From: a virus
Strand: one strand, 5' to 3'
DNA: 22,597 bases
IMG/VR virus record: IMGVR_UViG_3300010296_000101
Span: 1-22,597 of that record
Of the stretch, positions 840 through 18,112 are shown one piece after another. The notes under the pieces are model-generated. The model was not told where the DNA came from. It saw only the letters and a program-made list of their open reading frames with translations, and did no database searches. The translations under genes were made by a program, and so were the position numbers. Position 1 is the stretch's first letter. The number at the start of each line of letters is the position of its first letter.

Positions 840-2168
840 ATGGCAAGAACAATCAAAGAAGCATGGGACGACTACAAGCGTCACTACATGAAAGGATTTG
901 AGATTCTTGCCAAGAAAGATATCCCAGTATATGATGGTGCCAAGAGTACAACGAAGGTAGGGACTGTTGCCAAAGGAAGTGGGGTTCATGTGAAACCCAT
1001 CAGTGGCAACAGTTACCAGGCTAGAATAGAAGTCATCTATGACAATGACAAGACAGGGTGGATCTCCACCCCCATGCTGGGTAAACCCAGGTCTGCCACA
1101 GGGAAGAAGAAGATGCCTGAGTTAAAACCTCAGGAGTTTGACATTCCCTTGGACACTAAGATGTCATTTGAGACTTACTATAAGAAAGTTCTTGCTGCTA
1201 TTGAGAAGCGTGATGATCTACAACTGGTCATCAAAGAATACTTGAAAGAACTGACTGAGTTCTGTATGCATCATGGTGCTACTGAGAAGAAAGAACTAGT
1301 CAAAGCGTACGCAGACCTAGCAGCGTCTGAGTATATCGATATCATGAATAACATTGAGAAGGACTTCTCTGAGATCACTGCACCTCTGTGTGTCCTAGAA
1401 CGTGGTGCTGCTGAACTTGACAAATTAGGGTATGGAAAACTAACCAAGAAGAATGCACAGGTCTTTCTTCCTGGTGCTGGTAATGAACCATTGATTGACT
1501 TCATGATTTATGACGATGAGGATAGAGAGTATCCTTTCTCAGTGAAGAAGATCAGCAAGACTACTAACGTTGTCAAACCACAAGACATTATCAGTCTGCT
1601 TGACAAGAAGAAAACATCTAAGTGGGTTAAAGATTATAAGAAGACTGTTGAGTTTAAGATCCTACAAGTCTTGGCCGACAATAAAGTCAAGCAAGGATCG
1701 TTCTTGGCACTAGAAGTTATCGCCAAAGACACTACTCTCAAAAGTAAACTACCACGTAACGTGGTGACCAACATTGATAAGATGATTAAAGGTGGTGACC
1801 CAGAGGAGTCAGATGTCAAAGCGGCACAAGCCTGGTGGTTAGAGCTGGCAGACATGTACTATACTGATGCTAAGGACTACTGGAACGCACCCAAGCACAG
1901 CAGTGGAAAAGTTGGTATCGCATCTCTCATCTGCCAGATGGCACTTCGTAAGATCAGCAAGGAGGGTGCTCTGGTCTACCGTAACGTGATTCAGAACTTT
2001 GTGATGCAGGAGGTGACCTACTACAAGTTCGCAACGAACAGAGGAATGCCTGTCTTCTACATGGAGAACCACTTGAAGAACAACCTCAAACCTAACGATG
2101 AGTATTACCTGAGAGAGAAGTCATCCATCGGCAACCCTTATCGCGATAAAGTCGGAGTCCAACCATGA
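840..2168 (+). CDS. late protein with SH3-like N-terminus and PD-(D/E)XK-like core
   Basis: 442 residues, name unknown. Residues about 20-80 look like a small beta-barrel of the bacterial SH3 type (KDIPVYDG..., GTVAKGSGVHV, TGWISTPM). A central segment has the order expected of a PD-(D/E)XK nuclease fold: a helix with E187 (VLERGA), then LIDFMI with D220, then FSVKK at 233-237, where Ser replaces the usual Glu of the ExK motif. The rest is helical and rich in Lys, Trp and Tyr. It is preceded by a late promoter motif, so it is probably made late and could be packaged or act during DNA maturation. The stop overlaps the next gene by 4 bases (ATGA). The nuclease reading is inference; an inactive structural relative is equally possible. 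Confidence 0.75.
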   Translation: MARTIKEAWDDYKRHYMKGFEILAKKDIPVYDGAKSTTKVGTVAKGSGVHVKPISGNSYQARIEVIYDNDKTGWISTPMLGKPRSATGKKKMPELKPQEFDIPLDTKMSFETYYKKVLAAIEKRDDLQLVIKEYLKELTEFCMHHGATEKKELVKAYADLAASEYIDIMNNIEKDFSEITAPLCVLERGAAELDKLGYGKLTKKNAQVFLPGAGNEPLIDFMIYDDEDREYPFSVKKISKTTNVVKPQDIISLLDKKKTSKWVKDYKKTVEFKILQVLADNKVKQGSFLALEVIAKDTTLKSKLPRNVVTNIDKMIKGGDPEESDVKAAQAWWLELADMYYTDAKDYWNAPKHSSGKVGIASLICQMALRKISKEGALVYRNVIQNFVMQEVTYYKFATNRGMPVFYMENHLKNNLKPNDEYYLREKSSIGNPYRDKVGVQP

Positions 2169-3361
2169 GCAAGAATACTCACCTCGAACACCTGGAAGAT
2201 GACATCTTCAACAACGGTTATGCTGGTGCTGAGAACGCACTAGAATTCCTAGAAGGACTCAAAGGTATGCTGACCACTGGTAAAGGTGGTGGTAATACTA
2301 AGGTGACGGTGAAGTGGGACGGTGCTCCTGCTATCATCTGTGGCATCGACCCTGAGACTGACATGTTCTTTGTCGGCACTAAGTCTGTGTTCGCCAAGAC
2401 TGAACCTAAGATCTGCTACTCACATGAAGAGATTGACATGTGGTACGGTGGCACAGGTGTGCATCCTAAGTTGATCGCTGCCTATGACTACCTGTCGAAA
2501 CTTCCTATCACTGGTGTGCTGCAAGGAGACCTGCTCTACACAGACACTCCTCCTCTGACTGTCATGGGTGGTAAGCAGTGCTACAAGTTCAAACCCAACA
2601 CGATTACTTACTGCGTTGAGAAAGCAACCGAGATGGGTGCTAAGGTAGGTAAGTCTAAGGTTGGTATCGTCTTCCACACAACATACAATGGACCCACACT
2701 TGCTCAAATGGCGGCATCTTTTGGTGCTAACGTTCGTGGTCTTCAAAGTGTTTCTGATGTGGCAGTATTCTCTGCCGAGTTCCAGAACACCAACGGCATC
2801 GCAAACCTCAGTCCTGCTGAGATGAGCAAGATCAATAATAGTATGCGTGTCGCTAAGCAGAACCTCAGGGCGTCTCGTAACTTCCTGAACCAGATCGGTG
2901 GCAGACTGACTGGCATGGAACCTGCTGCTCTGTTTAAGATTTTCTTCAACCAGAAGATCAAGGAAGGTAGGATCCCTACCTCTACTCAACAGATGTTAGT
3001 TGAGTTCAAACTGTTTGTTGAGTCTCGCTATGCCCTCAAAGAAGCAGGTGTGAAGACACCTAAGGCAAAGGAGAAGTGGCAGATCAAGAAACAGGAAGCG
3101 ATTGATTACCTAAATAATAATAAGTCTGAAATATATCGTGCGCTGGCAGGATTCAAGAATCTTATCACCGCGAAAGAACAGATCATCAACCGTCTCAAAA
3201 AGATTGAGGGGGTTGGCACATTCCTAGAAGATGAGAAAGGTTACAAGGTTACAAGTCCAGAAGGATTTGTGGCAATCAAGGATGGCACTGCTGTCAAACT
3301 TGTTGATAGACTTGAATTCTCTCGTGCAAACTTCACCGTAGCAAAAGATTGGGGCAAATGA
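2165..3361 (+). CDS. ligase-like covalent nucleotidyltransferase (putative)
   Basis: 398 residues. The motifs of the DNA/RNA ligase and capping-enzyme superfamily appear in order: motif I KWDGAP at 50-55 (K50 the candidate adenylated lysine), FFVGTKS at 68-74, a motif III-like GVLQGDLLY at 117-125, motif IV-like EGFV at 366-369 and motif V-like VKLVDR at 377-382. A long lysine-rich helical segment (about 215-350) sits between motifs III and IV, which is unusual. If functional it would use ATP or NAD+ to form a lysyl-AMP intermediate and join or modify nucleic-acid ends. It overlaps both neighbours by 4 bases (ATGA), forming a unit with the nuclease-like gene before it and the adenylyltransferase-like gene after it. 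The substrate cannot be read from sequence. Confidence 0.8.
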   Translation: MSKNTHLEHLEDDIFNNGYAGAENALEFLEGLKGMLTTGKGGGNTKVTVKWDGAPAIICGIDPETDMFFVGTKSVFAKTEPKICYSHEEIDMWYGGTGVHPKLIAAYDYLSKLPITGVLQGDLLYTDTPPLTVMGGKQCYKFKPNTITYCVEKATEMGAKVGKSKVGIVFHTTYNGPTLAQMAASFGANVRGLQSVSDVAVFSAEFQNTNGIANLSPAEMSKINNSMRVAKQNLRASRNFLNQIGGRLTGMEPAALFKIFFNQKIKEGRIPTSTQQMLVEFKLFVESRYALKEAGVKTPKAKEKWQIKKQEAIDYLNNNKSEIYRALAGFKNLITAKEQIINRLKKIEGVGTFLEDEKGYKVTSPEGFVAIKDGTAVKLVDRLEFSRANFTVAKDWGK

Positions 3362-4407
3362 GATTTCGTCAGTTCATTATCGAAGCAGTACAAGCTGCCA
3401 AGAAATCAACTTCAAAGAAGAACGAAGTAATCGACAAGCATGTTGCCATTACTTTTGGTAGATTCAACCCACCCCATGCTGGTCATGGTAAGTTGTTGGA
3501 TGCTGTGAAGGCACACGCTGGTGATTCTGGTAACTATCGTATCTATCCTTCTAGATCTCAGGACCACAAGAAGAATCCTCTGCACCCCGAGCAGAAGATT
3601 GAGCACATGCGTGGTATGTTTAAGCAACATAAGGATGCTATTCAGAACTCTGAGGCGCATCGAAACATCTTTGACATCCTTCGTGACCTCCATGATGAGG
3701 GACACGAGCACGTTACTATGGTAGTGGGTGATGATCGTGTGAAGGAGTTTGAGAAACTTACCCAAAAATATAATGGTAAGCATTATGACTTCAAGTCAAT
3801 TAACATTAAGTCTGCTGGCGCTCGAAGTGATGATAGTGATGATCCTATCGAAACCCTGTCTGCTTCCAAGATGCGAGCCCACGCCCAAGGGGGTGACCAT
3901 GACTCCTTCCATGCAGGCACTGGTGGATACAAGAAGTCTAAGGAGATGATGCAGCATGTGCTGGACGGTATGGTCCCGCCGAAAAAAGAAGAGAAGAAAC
4001 CTGCCGCTAAGAAGAAAGCAAAGGCAGTTGCAGAATCTGTTTGGGACTATGCTCCTAAACTAGATCTCGAATCCTTCCGCGACTACTACATGCTCGAACA
4101 CATCTTCAAGGTGGGTGCTATCGTAGAGCATGATGACAGTGGTATGGTCGGTAAGATCGTTCACCGTGGTCCTAACTACATCATCATGGAAGATGGTCTT
4201 GGTGGTGAGCACCGTGCATGGTTGCAGCATGTGACCGAGGTAAATCAAAACAACCAAAGCAATTATTCTGCTGACAATGGCAGTGGTAATGACTGGAAAG
4301 TCGGAACCGATACATATAGAATGGCGGTCCAAAACATGACTCCTGGACAGGAAATTAAGAAGTTCAGTGAGTTCACCAAGAACCAAAAGTCTATCAAGAA
4401 TAAATAA
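3358..4407 (+). CDS. NMNAT/cytidylyltransferase-like nucleotidyltransferase with C-terminal SH3/KOW-like domain
   Basis: 349 residues from the ATG at 3358, chosen because it forms an ATGA overlap with the upstream stop; a TTG at 3349 is in frame but unlikely. The N-terminal half carries the HxGH nucleotidyltransferase signature GRFNPPHAGH (34-43) and a second-site motif LSASKMRAHA (about 167-176), similar to the ISSTxxR motif of NMN adenylyltransferases. This family transfers AMP or CMP from NTPs onto phosphorylated small molecules such as NMN. A lysine-rich linker (about 209-223) leads to a small beta domain (about 250-295, FKVGAIVEHDDSGMVGKIV) of the type often seen in phage structural proteins. 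The fusion and late position suggest a virion-linked role. The substrate is unknown, and NAD metabolism is only one option. Confidence 0.8.
   Translation: MRFRQFIIEAVQAAKKSTSKKNEVIDKHVAITFGRFNPPHAGHGKLLDAVKAHAGDSGNYRIYPSRSQDHKKNPLHPEQKIEHMRGMFKQHKDAIQNSEAHRNIFDILRDLHDEGHEHVTMVVGDDRVKEFEKLTQKYNGKHYDFKSINIKSAGARSDDSDDPIETLSASKMRAHAQGGDHDSFHAGTGGYKKSKEMMQHVLDGMVPPKKEEKKPAAKKKAKAVAESVWDYAPKLDLESFRDYYMLEHIFKVGAIVEHDDSGMVGKIVHRGPNYIIMEDGLGGEHRAWLQHVTEVNQNNQSNYSADNGSGNDWKVGTDTYRMAVQNMTPGQEIKKFSEFTKNQKSIKNK
4399..4406 (+). promoter_or_regulatory. T4-type late promoter motif AATAAATA
   Basis: AATAAATA overlaps the stop codon of the nucleotidyltransferase gene (N-K-stop) and lies 23 bases before the ATG at 4430. 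That is almost the same geometry as the motif at 810, which also overlaps an N-K-stop end. One mismatch to TATAAATA. Confidence 0.6.
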
Positions 4408-4429: not shown

Positions 4430-5947
4430 ATGCTCGATATCAAGGTATCTGCCGCCCTGCTTGGGTTTTCTGAGGCAGAGCAAAGAACTATTCTTAACTG
4501 CGTATATGAATGCAAGAAGGCACCAACTGCCAGAATGCATGAAGCAGTTCTGACAGTAGCAGACATCATCGACTCCCATGAGGAAGTCGTTGAAGGGTAT
4601 GCTGGGTTCCCGATTGATAAGGCATTGATCGACAAGAACAAGGCTGCGTTCAAAGATGATCGCAACATTGGTCGTGTTGTTACTCAGGGTGGTCAGTCCA
4701 TGGTCATCACTGGTAAGAAAGCAGACGGTCGTTATTCGGTTGTTGGTAAGAAAGGGGAAAAGACTGCCAAGGCACCCGAGGACATCGGTCTCAACATGCA
4801 ACGTGAGCACGTTGACATCGACGAACTTCACGAGGGTATGAAGCAAGCACGTAAGAACGTGGGTGCTAAGACATGCTGGGCAGGTTACAAGGCACAGGGA
4901 ACCAAGATCAAAGGTGGCAAGGAAGTCCCTAACTGTGTCAAGGAAGAGGAACAGATTGACGAACGCTACAAGGGTAAGCATGGTCAGTCCTCTGCTGAGT
5001 ACAAGGATGACCGTTCCCCTGGTGGTAAGATGGTCTCTGGTGACTCCAAGCAGTCGGGTGCTGAATACACCCATGGTCGCAGAGTCAAGGCAGCAAACCC
5101 TGGTTCTCAACCTGACGAAGGTGGCAAGACTAAGCCCAAGTCCCAAGGTAAGATGGACAAAGGCACCAAAGCAGATCTTGCATACCGCAAAGCGAATTTG
5201 AAGAAGGAAGACTTTGAAGCATTCATCGAAGATGTTATCTCTGATGAAGCATTCGATTCTTTCTCCTTTGAAGAACTCCATGACATCTGTGTTGAGGCAC
5301 TGATGGAACTGGATGGTGAGTATCTCACCGAAGCACTGGACATGATCGATGATGTAGAACTGCTGACTGAGGTCACCAGTCCTGCTAAGGTCAACGCCGC
5401 TCGCTTGAAGAACAAGAACTCTGCTGCATCTGGCGAAGGTCAGACCGCAGGTAAGGACGCTGGTGCTGAGGCACGTAGTCGCCTTGGTAGTGGTTCTGCT
5501 TCTAGCAGCAGCCGTGGCGAGAAGATGAAGGCAGCATTGAAGTCTGCTGGATCTGCCGTCAAGTCTGGTTTGAAGAAGGTAGGTGCTGGTGCTGCTAAGG
5601 CAGCAGGGTACGCTGCTGGTGCTGCTGGTCGTGCTGCTAAGGCAGGTGTCAGCAACTTTAAGAAGGGATACGAGCGTGGTGCAAGTGGATCTGGTGGCGG
5701 CAACAGCAAGCCCGCTGGTGGTTCCTCTGTCTCCAAGTCTCAGTCTCCTGGTGACTCCTCGTCGTCCTCTACCTCTGGTGGTGGCAACGAGAATCGTGTA
5801 CGACTGCGCGATAGAATTAAGTCAGGTATTAAGAAAGTCGTCGGTGGTGCTGCCCGTGCAGTATCCCGTGGTGCTCGTAGCGTTGCAAGACGCATGGGCG
5901 AAGAGACTACATATAACTGGCGAGTAGAATTAGGAATCAACGAATGA
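4430..5947 (+). CDS. large low-complexity virion/prohead-type protein
   Basis: 505 residues from the first ATG after the late promoter motif; an in-frame non-ATG start at 4367 would sit inside the upstream gene. The N-terminal third is a compact mixed domain. Around residues 145-170 is a Lys/Gly-rich segment ending in GGKEVPNCVKEEE, a signature I associate with structural proteins of marine T4-like phages. An acidic helical part follows (about 261-308). The C-terminus is rich in Gly, Ser, Ala and Lys, with two copies of a basic module (VKSGLKKVGAGAAKAA and IKSGIKKVVGGAARAV). It ends with TYNWRVELGINE, typical of phage prohead or virion proteins. Probable role: late structural, scaffolding or DNA-contacting protein. 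It overlaps the next gene by 4 bases. Confidence 0.75.
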   Translation: MLDIKVSAALLGFSEAEQRTILNCVYECKKAPTARMHEAVLTVADIIDSHEEVVEGYAGFPIDKALIDKNKAAFKDDRNIGRVVTQGGQSMVITGKKADGRYSVVGKKGEKTAKAPEDIGLNMQREHVDIDELHEGMKQARKNVGAKTCWAGYKAQGTKIKGGKEVPNCVKEEEQIDERYKGKHGQSSAEYKDDRSPGGKMVSGDSKQSGAEYTHGRRVKAANPGSQPDEGGKTKPKSQGKMDKGTKADLAYRKANLKKEDFEAFIEDVISDEAFDSFSFEELHDICVEALMELDGEYLTEALDMIDDVELLTEVTSPAKVNAARLKNKNSAASGEGQTAGKDAGAEARSRLGSGSASSSSRGEKMKAALKSAGSAVKSGLKKVGAGAAKAAGYAAGAAGRAAKAGVSNFKKGYERGASGSGGGNSKPAGGSSVSKSQSPGDSSSSSTSGGGNENRVRLRDRIKSGIKKVVGGAARAVSRGARSVARRMGEETTYNWRVELGINE

Positions 5948-15295: not shown

Positions 15296-15506
15296 ACCAC
15301 AGTGGAACATAGACCCAGAGTCCCCTATACCTATCCTGACACTCATCTCAGAGATGGAGGGGACCTGTGTCTATCTCGCTGCTCTGGTAGGGACCGAGCA
15401 CGAGGATTATAAGTATATACGTGCAGCGTGTGATCGTTGGTACAAAGTATACTTCAAAAAGAAGAAAGAGTATGAGACCTCAAAGCGCGAAAGCGAAGGG
15501 ACGTAG
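15285..15506 (+). CDS. small hypothetical protein (73 aa)
   Basis: 73 residues from the ATG at 15285, overlapping the previous gene by 11 bases. A hydrophobic helix (PILTLISEMEGTCVYLAALVG) is followed by a basic, aromatic helix (WYKVYFKKKKEYE). The last 35 bases overlap the nuclease-like gene. Function unknown. Confidence 0.6.
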   Translation: MPIRPQWNIDPESPIPILTLISEMEGTCVYLAALVGTEHEDYKYIRAACDRWYKVYFKKKKEYETSKRESEGT

Positions 15507-15819
15507 GTTCCAACAATGGGTTAGAGATATGCTCATCGAGCACAGAGGTATTCATCGTGAGGATATTGAATCACGATCCATGGGTGCTGGTGGTGAAGAT
15601 CTGATCATGGCAAGAGATGCTAGACAGAAGTTCCCATTCAGTATAGAGTGTAAGAACGTAGAGAAATTAAATGTCTACGATGCATACGATCAAGCGTGTG
15701 CTAATGCAGGAGACCACACTCCCATCCTCTTCATGAAGAAGAATGGAAAGAAACCTCTTGCTGTTGTTGATGCTGAATGGTTTATTAAACATGTTCACAA
15801 TCCCGATCGAGAAATTTAG
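15472..15819 (+). CDS. PD-(D/E)XK nuclease-like protein
   Basis: 115 residues from the ATG at 15472; the longer frame from 15421 lies inside the previous gene. The core reads SMGAGGEDLIMA (D43) followed by FPFSIECKN (E59-C-K61), the D...ExK metal site of the PD-(D/E)XK fold. The N-terminal helix (KGRRFQQWVRDML) fits the usual first helix. The size and GAGGED motif resemble Holliday-junction-resolvase-like or small endonuclease proteins of marine phages. Probable role: DNA repair, recombination or host DNA breakdown; the exact substrate is unknown. The following gene overlaps its end by 29 bases. Confidence 0.75.
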   Translation: MRPQSAKAKGRRFQQWVRDMLIEHRGIHREDIESRSMGAGGEDLIMARDARQKFPFSIECKNVEKLNVYDAYDQACANAGDHTPILFMKKNGKKPLAVVDAEWFIKHVHNPDREI

Positions 15820-16408
15820 CGTACCCAACTGGGACGTATGGCGTGACAGAATCCTCTCTCAGTGCGACGAGAATAGTCCTCAGGCGATCATTAGCAATGG
15901 TAGGGTGTCTCTCCATGAGATGGACACTGATTACCATGACCTAGTTGCTAACAAAGCAATGCCCAAATACTATTGGGATGTGATGGATGCTTGTGCTCCT
16001 ATCCTAGATCAGATGGCACATGAGACTGGACTCGATATGCAGAGAGTCGTGGCAATGTGGCACCAGACTACTGCCAATGGTAAGTTTCATGGTGTCCACA
16101 ACCATGGTCCAGTGGGTGTGACTGCTGTGCTGTATGTGCAGTACGATCCCTCAGTACACAAAGCAACAACCTTCATCGCTCCGTTTACAAACTTCATTAA
16201 CGGAGAGGTCATTGACTTCATTCCTGATGTGCAGGAAGGTGACATTGTATTCTTCCCTTCCTACCTGGCACACCTGCAAGAACCTAACTTCACAGACGTT
16301 CCTAGGACCATCATTTCCTTCAACGTGATGGGTAAGGAGATGATCCCACACAAGGTTGTGCCACGGGTCCAGCTGCAACAGCCCCCCTTGACACCCCACT
16401 TTCCCTGA
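15791..16408 (+). CDS. 2-oxoglutarate/Fe(II) oxygenase-like protein 1
   Basis: 205 residues from the ATG at 15791, in an overlap with the nuclease-like gene. A double-stranded beta-helix region shows GKFHGVHNHG (H103/H105 region), GDIVFFPSYLAH (H161) and PRTIISFN (R172), the layout of the phage 2OG-Fe(II) oxygenases with a distal His and a 2OG-binding Arg. The proximal site reads HNH rather than HxD, so metal binding needs confirmation. Such enzymes hydroxylate proteins or small molecules; the target here is unknown. The 3' end carries the -35 box of the next promoter. Confidence 0.7.
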   Translation: MFTIPIEKFSVPNWDVWRDRILSQCDENSPQAIISNGRVSLHEMDTDYHDLVANKAMPKYYWDVMDACAPILDQMAHETGLDMQRVVAMWHQTTANGKFHGVHNHGPVGVTAVLYVQYDPSVHKATTFIAPFTNFINGEVIDFIPDVQEGDIVFFPSYLAHLQEPNFTDVPRTIISFNVMGKEMIPHKVVPRVQLQQPPLTPHFP

Positions 16409-16416
16409 TATATATT
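16388..16416 (+). promoter_or_regulatory. sigma70-type promoter TTGACA-N17-TATATT
   Basis: A consensus -35 TTGACA (16388-16393) is 17 bases from TATATT (16411-16416, one mismatch to TATAAT). The -35 lies in the last codons of the oxygenase gene. A start near 16423 would give a 22-base leader for the gene at 16445 and could also drive the downstream oxygenase and tRNAs. Confidence 0.7.
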
Positions 16417-16444
16417 ATAAGAGTTCTGAAACATTGAGCGACCC

Positions 16445-16579
16445 ATGGAAGACTATCTGGAAGACTTCTCTTTGCTAGAAGTTTTGATCGATGAACTCCA
16501 TGAACACTTGGAGGACGGTGCCGAAGTACAGGCACACGCTGTTAATGAGAAGATTAAATCCATCTATGAACTATCGTGA
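16445..16579 (+). CDS. 44-residue acidic helical protein
   Basis: 44 residues, very acidic, one long helix (EDYLEDFSLLEVLIDELHEHLE...). First ORF after the sigma70-type promoter, and it overlaps the next gene by 14 bases, which suggests translational coupling. No function recognised. Confidence 0.55.
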   Translation: MEDYLEDFSLLEVLIDELHEHLEDGAEVQAHAVNEKIKSIYELS

Positions 16580-17084
16580 TCGTTATGTTACTGTTGATCT
16601 GAACGATGAAGAGTTCGATGAGATCAAATCTATCCTCCAACGCTATCAGAACTTTGAGCACACTGAGATCGAGAACGTCCGAGACTGCGAGGTATCCTTC
16701 GTAGAAGATCAGACTCTCTATGATCTTATTTTGTCATACGCATCAAGAGTAAACGAGGCAGCAAAGTGGTTCTTCGATATTGACTTCGTAGAACCACTGC
16801 AACTCACCAAGTATGAGAAAGGAAACAGCTATGATTGGCACCAAGATGAAAGTGAATGGTCCCGCAACAAGAGAAAAGGTGAAAAGGTTCGTAAGATTTC
16901 TTTCACTCTCCTGCTAAACGAGGACTTCCAAGGTGGTTACTTCCACCTTATCAATCAACCAATCGAAATGAAAACAGGTCAGATGATTTTCTTTCACTCA
17001 GATGATTACCATAGAGTCGCCCCAGTAGAGGACGGCACACGATATTCTCTCGTTGGATGGGTACAAGGTCCCGCCTGGCGTTGA
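16566..17084 (+). CDS. 2-oxoglutarate/Fe(II) oxygenase 2 (prolyl-hydroxylase/PKHD type)
   Basis: 172 residues from the ATG at 16566; an earlier in-frame start at 16491 would overlap the 44-residue ORF more. The Fe(II) triad is clear: H92-x-D94 (DWHQDES) and H149 (DDYHRVAP), with R159 as the likely 2OG ligand (DGTRYSLVGWVQG). The architecture matches the PKHD/PiuC-type hydroxylases common in cyanophages. It lies directly before two tRNA genes and probably shares their transcript. The substrate is unknown. Confidence 0.85.
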   Translation: MNYRDRYVTVDLNDEEFDEIKSILQRYQNFEHTEIENVRDCEVSFVEDQTLYDLILSYASRVNEAAKWFFDIDFVEPLQLTKYEKGNSYDWHQDESEWSRNKRKGEKVRKISFTLLLNEDFQGGYFHLINQPIEMKTGQMIFFHSDDYHRVAPVEDGTRYSLVGWVQGPAWR

Positions 17085-17091
17085 GTCTCCT

Positions 17092-17166
17092 GGTCCAGTA
17101 GCTCAGTTGGATAGCAGCAACTGCCTTCTAAGCAGTCGGTCGTAGGTTCGAGTCCTACCTGGATCG
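17092..17166 (+). tRNA. tRNA-Arg (anticodon TCT)
   Basis: Acceptor GGTCCAG pairs with CTGGATC; T arm GTAGG-TTCGAGT-CCTAC; anticodon stem ACTGC/GCAGT around CTTCTAA, anticodon TCT at 17127-17129 reading AGA. Discriminator G, no encoded CCA. The D stem GCTC faces CAGC, leaving a C-C mismatch, and the D arm appears one base longer than I expect for related tRNAs. The AGA tRNA may support phage codon use. Confidence 0.9.
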
Positions 17167-17169
17167 TTC

Positions 17170-17241
17170 GGGAGATTAACTCAGCGGTAGAGTGGTTGCC
17201 TTACAAGCAATAAGTCACTGGTTCGATCCCAGTATCTCCCA
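17170..17241 (+). tRNA. tRNA-Val (anticodon TAC)
   Basis: Acceptor GGGAGAT pairs with ATCTCCC; D stem ACTC/GAGT; anticodon stem GTTGC/GCAAT around CTTACAA with anticodon TAC; T arm ACTGG-TTCGATC-CCAGT; discriminator A, CCA not encoded. It starts 3 bases after tRNA-Arg ends, so the two are probably processed from one transcript. Confidence 0.93.
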
Positions 17242-17242
17242 C

Positions 17243-17258
17243 TCGGGCACCTGCCCGA
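17243..17258 (+). other. GC-rich hairpin after tRNA-Val
   Basis: TCGGGC pairs with GCCCGA around ACCT, one base after the tRNA-Val discriminator. With no T-tract it is more likely a processing or stability element than a terminator. Confidence 0.5.
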
Positions 17259-17282
17259 CCAACAGTAGAATAGGAGGCGATC

Positions 17283-17492
17283 ATGACGATCCAATCTAAG
17301 TTTGCAGACAGTCTGCAAATTCTTCGGGACACTGCCAACGGAAACATCCAGTTGGAAGTACAGTATCCATCTCTCTTCTCACAAGTCTGCCGCTTTTATG
17401 AAGATAAAGGAGTCAGGTTCTGGGGGGTAGATATCGAAGAAGATTATGCCTACCTTATTGATCACCTAGTCGCAGACAACGTTCTTGCATAA
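17283..17492 (+). CDS. small hypothetical protein (69 aa)
   Basis: 69 residues with a strong AGGAGG ribosome site at 17272-17277. Mixed alpha/beta, with no motif known to me (YEDKGVRFWGVDIEEDYAYLIDHLV). Its TAA stop overlaps the next ATG (TAATG), so it is probably translated together with the downstream oxygenase. Confidence 0.65.
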   Translation: MTIQSKFADSLQILRDTANGNIQLEVQYPSLFSQVCRFYEDKGVRFWGVDIEEDYAYLIDHLVADNVLA

Positions 17493-18112
17493 TGAAATTA
17501 AACCCAGAGCCAATATTCTACGACGGTCGAGTAGCATATCCCAGAACCGATTTTATCTATACAGAGAAGATTGACGAGGGCATTGTTGACGGCATTACTG
17601 ATTTTTATCATACTCAAACAATCTTTGAGAAATGGCCTGGGGAAACCATTGACGACAATGGTGGTGGGATGGTAGACCCTAGCATTAAAGATTCCATGGA
17701 CAATCCTGTCTTCATTGGAATCACTGATACTAGGGTCCGTGATTTCACTGGGGAAGTGAACCGTGTAATGAATAATTATGTGGATCACTTCCCTCTTTGT
17801 GCTAAGACAAACATTTGGAAGATGGAAGAGTTCTTCAATCTTCAATACTACAAACCTGGTGGTGGGTATCACATGTGGCATTGTGAACGCCAGTCAAGTA
17901 GTCGATCTAATACATATAGACATATGGTATGGATGACATACCTTAATGACGTTCCTGACGGCGGCACCGAGTGGTTCCACCAGGACCTTTACATCCCTGC
18001 CGAGAAAGGACTGACAGTAATCTGGCCAGCGGACTGGACCTACCATCATAGAGGTCGCAAATCAGACACATCAGATAAACTAATCGCAACAGGGTGGTAT
18101 CATTTCCTTTAA
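17492..18112 (+). CDS. 2-oxoglutarate/Fe(II) oxygenase-like protein 3
   Basis: 206 residues. The likely iron site is YHMWHCERQ (H130-C-E132, an HxE variant of HxD), with a distal His in DWTYHHRG (H185 or H186) and a basic residue further on. The region between (WMTYLNDVPDGGTEWFHQD) fits the 2OG-Fe(II) jelly-roll, where NDV.GGTEF-like motifs are common. It differs clearly from the other two oxygenase-like proteins nearby. The role may be protein or small-molecule hydroxylation, unknown. It is coupled to the preceding small ORF by TAATG. Confidence 0.75.
   Translation: MKLNPEPIFYDGRVAYPRTDFIYTEKIDEGIVDGITDFYHTQTIFEKWPGETIDDNGGGMVDPSIKDSMDNPVFIGITDTRVRDFTGEVNRVMNNYVDHFPLCAKTNIWKMEEFFNLQYYKPGGGYHMWHCERQSSSRSNTYRHMVWMTYLNDVPDGGTEWFHQDLYIPAEKGLTVIWPADWTYHHRGRKSDTSDKLIATGWYHFL

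Follow-up and report, generated by a model that had tools for sequence, protein, structure and literature searches.

The internal proteins IPI to IPIII of bacteriophage T4 are packed into the phage head, and they form a highly diverse set that has only a capsid-targeting sequence in common. This sequence is able to bring foreign proteins into the head, according to a review (PMC3012670). T4 IPI* is a small restriction-enzyme inhibitor. Further described systems concern conflicts over nicotinamide adenine dinucleotide (NAD+) and RNA repair in jumbo phages and myoviruses; in the portions of the accounts available, these comprise NAD synthesis, RNA ligases and head-packed enzymes of NAD and ADP-ribose (NAD-ADPr) that are proposed to act early (PMC7824862, PMC9503650). 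Finally, virion proteins labelled as cytidylyltransferases or as resembling nicotinamide mononucleotide (NMN) adenylyltransferase (NMNAT) have been found in the cyanophages S-SZBM1, S-SCSM1, S-CBWM1 and S-CREM2. Here we compare these systems with a three-gene cassette at positions 840 to 4,407 of the virus record IMGVR_UViG_3300010296_000101, of which we analyzed positions 1 to 22,597 (the window). The genes, which we call A, B and C, encode a nuclease-like protein, a ligase-like protein of family DUF6267 and an NMNAT-like nucleotidyltransferase. With moderate confidence, we read the cassette as a late kit of end-processing and nucleotide or NAD enzymes, of which at least C is packed into the head, and in which the nuclease position is exchanged between lineages.

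The window belongs to a T4-like cyanophage, and its gene order matches those of S-WAM1 and S-SZBM1. By comparison of gene order, the cassette sits between mazG and gp61/nrdA, within the replication cluster. All of its features lie on the + strand. Gene A occupies positions 840 to 2,168 (442 amino acids), gene B positions 2,165 to 3,361 (398 amino acids) and gene C positions 3,358 to 4,407 (349 amino acids, counted from the ATG at 3,358). ATGA overlaps couple A to B at 2,165-2,168 and B to C at 3,358-3,361, and a scan for the late-promoter core ATAAATA places one copy at 811-817, before gene A and overlapping the stop of the preceding gene. Three consecutive genes with ATGA overlaps and a late-promoter motif ahead had been reported in a preliminary description of this DNA, and all of these elements are indeed present. 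The window holds six copies of ATAAATA, all on the + strand, which also encodes the genes considered here; in 100 shuffled sequences the mean was 1.6 copies on both strands, and none of the 100 reached six. At least one copy is intragenic (9,892).

Gene C is firmly predicted, from its motifs and family match, to be an HxGH nucleotidyltransferase. It matches PF01467 with 34.1 bits against a cut-off of 21 (E-value 3.6e-8; Pfam). Reading of the sequence together with its relatives locates the motif GRFNPPHAGH at 3,457-3,486 and a second nucleotidyltransferase motif, LSASKMR, at 3,856-3,876. Among 101 distinct relatives of C with at least 200 amino acids, G-R-x-N-P-P-x-x-G-H is found in 100 and the LSASKMR-type motif in 98, and the nearest named models of C include adenylyltransferases of NMN and of nicotinic acid mononucleotide (NaMN). 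The earlier assignment of C as an NMNAT-like HxGH protein is thus borne out. The protein continues in a further C-terminal region, proposed in the preliminary description to be a structural-type beta domain, and this part is common to other phage families (phrog_22379, phrog_4808). A sequence search of the PDB with C returned nothing meaningful.

Our strongest new point concerns the N-terminus of C, by which the protein resembles the T4-type internal proteins packed in the head. A pattern scan identifies a T4-type capsid-targeting peptide, MRFRQFIIEA, at 3,358-3,387. This peptide is of the same type as MKTYQEFIAEA, with which IPII and IPIII begin in the T4 record; IPI begins somewhat differently. 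Whereas IPI* inhibits restriction enzymes, the peptide of C precedes a predicted HxGH nucleotidyltransferase, whose gene is linked to those of a ligase-like and a nuclease-like protein. The pattern matches one of the 36 open reading frames (ORFs) of the window and one of the 248 ORFs of S-WAM1, in both cases C, as well as three of 250 T4 ORFs, namely IPII, IPIII and an ORF of 72 amino acids. It occurs in 81 of 113 distinct C sequences versus 15 of 665 background ORFs, and these 15 still contain two genes from the position before B (in loci L003 and L101 of our collection) and, close to B, five genes of the P-loop kinase type. Among C sequences shorter than 450 amino acids, 74 of 84 carry the pattern. 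It is also present in 20 of 133 distinct B sequences, which belong to other lineages; when B has an N-terminus that extends before the conserved HLEH stretch, 19 of 40 distinct sequences match and many others are loosely similar. A search of the open-licence literature for "capsid targeting" together with "cyanophage" turned up one T4 review.

Other genes with such N-termini were noticed around B in other lineages. Adenylate kinases (PF00406) with a T4-type targeting N-terminus adjoin B at L161:2954-3541, L166:5480-6043, L145:4464-5048 and L178:1864-2439, and a Zeta/AAA_33-type kinase with a targeting peptide adjoins B in another lineage. At L101:2787-6031, three genes in a row have targeting peptides, and the last of them is B; the second contains GSxxxxxxxGDID...QLDLMI, which by eye resembles a Pol-beta-type nucleotidyltransferase, and has no Pfam match. 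In L139, L142, L155, L160, L162 and L167, no C was detected in the flank, and the gene ahead of B has a start resembling MKxNEVxTEA.

Published virion proteomes of relatives, in the parts that are available, agree with packaging of C. The virion table of S-SZBM1, which has 30 proteins, includes S-SZBM1_140, which is C (2 peptides), and S-SZBM1_139, the product of the next gene (PMC9146016). For S-SCSM1, the NMNAT ORF91 is reported from the virion (PMC9602691), and sequence comparison confirms ORF91 as a relative of C. A cytidylyltransferase was detected in the S-CREM2 virion with 3 peptides (PMC10665884); this protein, like that of S-CBWM1, is a relative of C by label only. The available text of these cyanophage reports mentions no targeting peptide, no link to DUF6267 and no nuclease slot. 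In addition, SSCSM1_90, encoded by the gene before ORF91, is labelled "virion protein" in the S-SCSM1 record, a status that rests on the record's label because the paper's main text omits ORF90. It is a protein of the NKWSPADIY...GVSLKK type and matches proteins encoded directly before B in L140 (1.7e-105) and L133 (1.1e-104). Virion packaging of C is therefore supported, both by its targeting N-terminus and by the proteomes of relatives, whereas packaging of A or B in the window's lineage is not supported. A targeting peptide of their own on A or B in this lineage was considered and rejected, the pattern scans being negative. The earlier suggestion of a virion-packaged system accordingly stands for C, extends by label to the S-SCSM1 protein, and is not supported for A and B of this lineage.

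Gene B belongs to DUF6267 (PF19782), which it matches with 444.8 bits against a cut-off of 27 (E-value 4.2e-133; Pfam), and no other Pfam family appears at E-values up to 1. The ligase-superfamily motifs I (KxDG), IV (EG) and V (K..) occur in order in B. Motif I is K50-W-D52-G53 (2,312-2,323), which includes the candidate nucleotidylated lysine; motif IV is E366-G367 (3,260-3,265) and motif V is K378-L-V-D-R382 (3,296-3,310). Across 69 aligned sequences, K50-W-D-G, Q120-G-D, E366-G and K378-x-x-D-R382 are all invariant, and in a set of 26 sequences that includes named phages such as Syn9 and DLP6, the residues K50, D52, G53, E366, G367, K378, V380 and R382 do not vary. Distinct relatives of 380 amino acids or more number 122, a count that excludes the Syn9 B (320 amino acids) and split B genes; all 122 have KxDG, Q(G/A)D and EG(F/Y/W), and 120 have K(L/I)V(D/N)R. 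The ligase motifs described earlier for B are thus upheld.

An AlphaFold model of B reached a predicted local distance difference test (pLDDT) of 81 and a predicted template modelling score (pTM) of 0.66. We realigned the top 1000 Foldseek chains to this model and scored them by Z. The first ten rows are RNA ligases: nine are Naegleria entries, with Z up to 8.1 (179 residues), and one is T. brucei REL1 (7.3). Further rows include T4 Rnl2 (6.8), Trl1 (6.3) and DNA ligases (5.0-5.8). Based on its motifs and this moderate structural match, we take B to be a ligase-type covalent nucleotidyltransferase, and one that resembles RNA ligases more than DNA ligases. B terminates 16-29 residues past the motif V lysine, and therefore has no C-terminal OB domain of the sort that, with motif VI, is found in a classical DNA ligase. 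It shares with Naegleria Rnl, T4 Rnl2 and TbREL1 the ordered motifs, the lack of an OB domain after motif V and, tentatively and at moderate Z, the catalytic-domain fold. However, it differs from them by a long helical insert (approximately residues 217-345) before motif IV, and from T4 Rnl2 by the absence of a sequence-profile match. PDB sequence searches with B and with its profile gave nothing meaningful. In a tblastn search, relatives of B were found in 467 of 50,697 phage records, duplicates included, of which 60 are listed. No mention of DUF6267, nor of the label "cytitidyltransferase", was found in the open-licence literature searched, and neither this family nor the A-B-C gene set occurs in the available parts of the accounts of phage NAD+ and RNA-repair conflicts cited above.

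It is well supported that B and C belong together. Of 107 distinct B loci, 75 have C as the gene directly after B; C lies within 3 kilobases of B in 68 of 74. B falls in PHROG 455, and C matches the other half of that long profile. In S-PM2, both profiles find the single reading frame of S-PM2p139, that of B at 5e-46 and that of C at 2e-67: at 103025-104804 (L249:4526-6305), B is split over two frames, with its first half just before and its second half in frame with C. Directly downstream of p139, which is a cytidyltransferase gene, lies p140 (T4-like GC 841), which matches relatives of A (best 2.6e-6).

Gene A is weakly assigned as PD-(D/E)XK-like, from conserved residues together with weak structural matches. 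Residues D220 (1,497-1,499) and F233-S-V-K236, of which S234-V235-K236 is encoded at 1,539-1,547, show no variation across 31 aligned sequences, including that of the window, and the conserved D...(D/E/S)xK active site expected of a PD-(D/E)XK nuclease is present. The model of A (pLDDT 89, pTM 0.82) consists of an SH3-like N-terminal domain, at about residues 17-87, and a nuclease-like part. Among the 50 structural matches listed, MspI (Z 5.7) and HinP1I (Z 5.1) alone cover the model beyond the SH3 domain. These two restriction endonucleases have an active site of the D...x-x-K type, like that of A. Unlike them, A has an SH3-like N-terminal domain, and it has no sequence match to them. Against predicted viral structures, the A model matched ten proteins with E-values no higher than 0.001, and identity was 10-15% for nine of these; one match is S-PM2 GC 841 (Q5GQJ7, p140; E-value 8.8e-12, 15% identity). 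PDB sequence searches with A and with its profile returned nothing meaningful. The PD-(D/E)XK-like character proposed earlier for A is therefore backed by the invariant D220 and SVK, and only weakly by structure.

We refer to the gene position directly upstream of B as the slot. Loci were fetched using A and B as queries, with one fetch comprising the best 80 of 595, and ORFs were called mechanically. An ORF of at least 200 amino acids is present directly upstream of B in 97 of the 105 loci with enough upstream sequence. This ORF belongs to A's own sequence family in only 38 of the 105, a number in which that family is over-represented because contigs were fetched with A and B, and such locus counts are not independent because many loci are related. 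As for the preliminary proposal that the three genes might stay adjacent across T4-like cyanophages, adjacency therefore holds for B with C, but only in part for A's own family.

Across 92 loci distinct in B, the slot occupants fall into 14 sequence families (E-value below 1e-4). L131 and L133 have B proteins that are 89% alike and slot genes from different families. Pairs of B proteins share a slot family in 298 of 707 cases at 60-70% identity, in 242 of 301 at 70-80% and in 119 of 120 at 80-90%. In an alignment of 50 slot proteins, hand-chosen from the slot genes available, a D...SxK core is conserved (D in 98%, S in 76% and K in 86%). A faster aligner applied to the same 50 gave D 88%, K 84% and S 80%, and the best column in each of six shuffled sets reached 50-74%. 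The SVK of the window's A falls outside the shared S/K column of the 50-protein alignment; in our opinion, this is because of the variable spacer. These results support the conclusion that the slot is mostly occupied by one nuclease superfamily, which is exchanged between lineages. Slot exchange and the targeting peptide of C both go beyond the preliminary description.

Some slot genes are exceptions. The L176 gene is HNH-like by eye, and one HNH_4 match (E-value 0.076) was obtained among the 50 proteins, its member not being named; genes of the L139/L142 type are without the nuclease core, and L101 is also atypical. The capsid-targeting pattern occurs in 3 of 54 slot genes outside the A family. 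A regular expression covering the entire slot was discarded as too loose (47 of 70 matched).

Given these assignments, the following course of events may be proposed. The cassette enzymes would be produced late in infection, and C, made with its T4-type targeting peptide, would enter the prohead core, where the prohead protease would probably trim it after I-x-E (FIIE/A). C would then be packed along with the DNA and enter the next host, where its NMNAT-like domain could at once make NAD+ or a related adenylylated product. B, if it works as its RNA-ligase-like build suggests, would seal strand breaks, and A, as a putative restriction-endonuclease-like enzyme, might cut or trim nucleic acid; the three would act jointly. 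Lineages would exchange the occupant of the nuclease slot and keep B and C, which is the outcome to expect of a nuclease adapted to targets that change, such as host or rival genomes, or host defence. The kit could serve nucleic-acid repair or host takeover. An early-acting function of the end-processing and nucleotide/NAD kit is suggested by analogy with the proposed head-packed NAD-ADPr enzymes and with phage RNA repair. In a more specific form, which we offer only tentatively, T4-like marine phages would carry a modular cut-and-repair kit, partly in the head, in which a restriction-type nuclease is swapped like a restriction specificity, whereas the other two members are retained: the ligase, of the new family DUF6267, mends broken strands of phage or host, and the NAD-maker supplies the system from the first minute of infection.

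It is important to emphasize that several observations weigh against the reading of a partly head-packed end-processing kit. Regarding enzymatic identity, C scores 24 bits against the NMN adenylyltransferase equivalog TIGR00482, far under the cut-off of 112.45, and because of this "NMNAT-like" denotes resemblance only. A plain Foldseek search of the PDB with the B model gave no significant match (best E-value 0.09), and in the realigned list unrelated helical proteins are intermixed from rank 11 (Z 6.9). Alignment of B to T4 Rnl2 by hhalign yielded nothing, either with a single sequence or with a 16-sequence alignment (probability 0.1, E-value 0.41), and hhalign found no match of B to T4 DNA ligase. 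The match of A to MspI and HinP1I, spanning A residues 135-442, is weak (Z under 6), and a Pfam search of the 50 slot proteins found no confident nuclease family, with PDDEXK_5 in only two (E-value 0.026). Regarding packaging, the targeting pattern was modelled on the N-termini of T4 IPII and IPIII and of C and fixed after these had been viewed, the whole-genome scans being made later with the same pattern. It fails on T4 IPI, and it occurs in only 2 of 21 C proteins of at least 450 amino acids. The scan of the 36 window ORFs found no targeting peptide on B, and the pattern is absent from the window's A and from all 41 members of the A family. In the available parts of the proteome papers, the S-SZBM1 virion table is without S-SZBM1_141 (B) and S-SZBM1_142 (A) (PMC9146016), no NMNAT is among the 14 virion proteins of S-CREM1 (PMC9964418), and authors caution that such proteins may be carry-over from the caesium chloride preparation. 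Lastly, the B of S-SCSM1 is far from C and is not labelled as a virion protein.

Alternatively, the cassette might be an RNA repair kit directed against host tRNA-cutting defences, with B as RNA ligase, kinases and a Pol-beta-like partner in some lineages, and A as a nuclease against host or rival nucleic acid. The structural matches of B to RNA ligases fit this view, as do the adenylate-kinase and AAA_33/Zeta-type kinases with targeting peptides that adjoin B elsewhere, and jumbo phages have been described, in the portions available, with RNA ligases and Pol-beta partners. However, the four targeting-peptide kinases scanned match adenylate kinase best rather than polynucleotide kinase, and the Pol-beta-like motif in the L101 slot protein, which no Pfam model matches, was read by eye only. 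We consider an RNA repair kit doubtful.

Another explanation is that the genes form a replication and packaging set, in which a junction resolvase or debranching nuclease (A) and a nick-sealing ligase (B) replace T4 gp49 and gp30, while C is an unrelated head protein on the same late transcript. The location of the cassette in the replication cluster is as this predicts, and a review, in its available part, groups gp30 and gp49 with quasicore genes, many of which one or more marine cyanophages lack. Moreover, the DNA ligase family PF01068 was found in none of five named Kyanoviridae genomes and three related contigs (T4 and DLP6 were positive), RNA_ligase PF09414 in T4 only (1 of 10), and NAD-ligase PF01653 in 0 of 7 records (the positive control was found in 11 of 14 genomes). 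As canonical DNA ligases were not found in the cyanophages searched, there is room for a DNA role of B. However, motif V of B is followed by no OB domain, the closest matches of B are RNA ligases, DLP6 has B despite keeping its canonical ligase, and the replication-gene list of the S-CREM2 authors, in the text available, includes a ligase, so that a ligase may coexist with B in some cyanophages. It also counts against such a set that the second half of B shares its frame with C in S-PM2, and the head-targeting peptide on some B proteins would be odd for a replication ligase. We therefore regard a replication set as unlikely.

It is also conceivable that C alone matters, as an injected NAD+ supply used against NAD-depleting host defences or for host takeover, with A and B merely co-transcribed. 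It is C, after all, that bears the targeting peptide and has been observed in virions, and it is an established proposal, in the available accounts (PMC7824862, PMC9503650), that phages make NAD+ to counter host NADases. This idea is at odds with the frequent position of C directly after B, with their shared frame in S-PM2 and with the virion label of the slot protein in S-SCSM1, and we think it improbable. That A, B and C are enzymatically dead components of the head core, as the presence of C and, by record label, of one slot protein in virions might suggest, is very improbable given that 97-100% of the distinct sequences of B and C retain the catalytic motifs and that those of A are invariant in 31 sequences.

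Beyond the cassette, another ATAAATA core (4,400-4,406, +; motif scan) stands ahead of the next gene, at 4,430-5,947 (+; phrog_27523), which by gene order is the counterpart of the virion-detected S-SZBM1_139. Its product is of low complexity, with pieces common to several PHROG families, one of them labelled cytidyltransferase (phrog_764). By eye, a stretch GEDLIMA...FSIECKN in a small protein at 15,421-15,819 (+) resembles a classic PD-(D/E)XK nuclease, and three consecutive ORFs at 15,743-18,112 (+) appear to be of the 2OG-Fe(II) oxygenase type, many of which are annotated in the S-SCSM1 record. The ORF list also contains psbA- and psbD-like ORFs at the right end of the window. A PADLOC search gave no match for the eight proteins submitted.

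In summary, what the preliminary description observed in this DNA is confirmed, and its interpretation as an end-processing or virion-packaged system is partly supported. With the preferred reading of a late, partly head-packed kit, DUF6267, which is common in T4-like marine phages and is without an assigned function, gains one that can be tested. The presence of NMNAT-like proteins in several cyanophage virion proteomes would be accounted for by the targeting peptide, which also predicts further packed proteins. A swapped nuclease slot beside a conserved ligase may, in turn, provide a way to learn how marine phages cope with the nucleic acid of their hosts or rivals.

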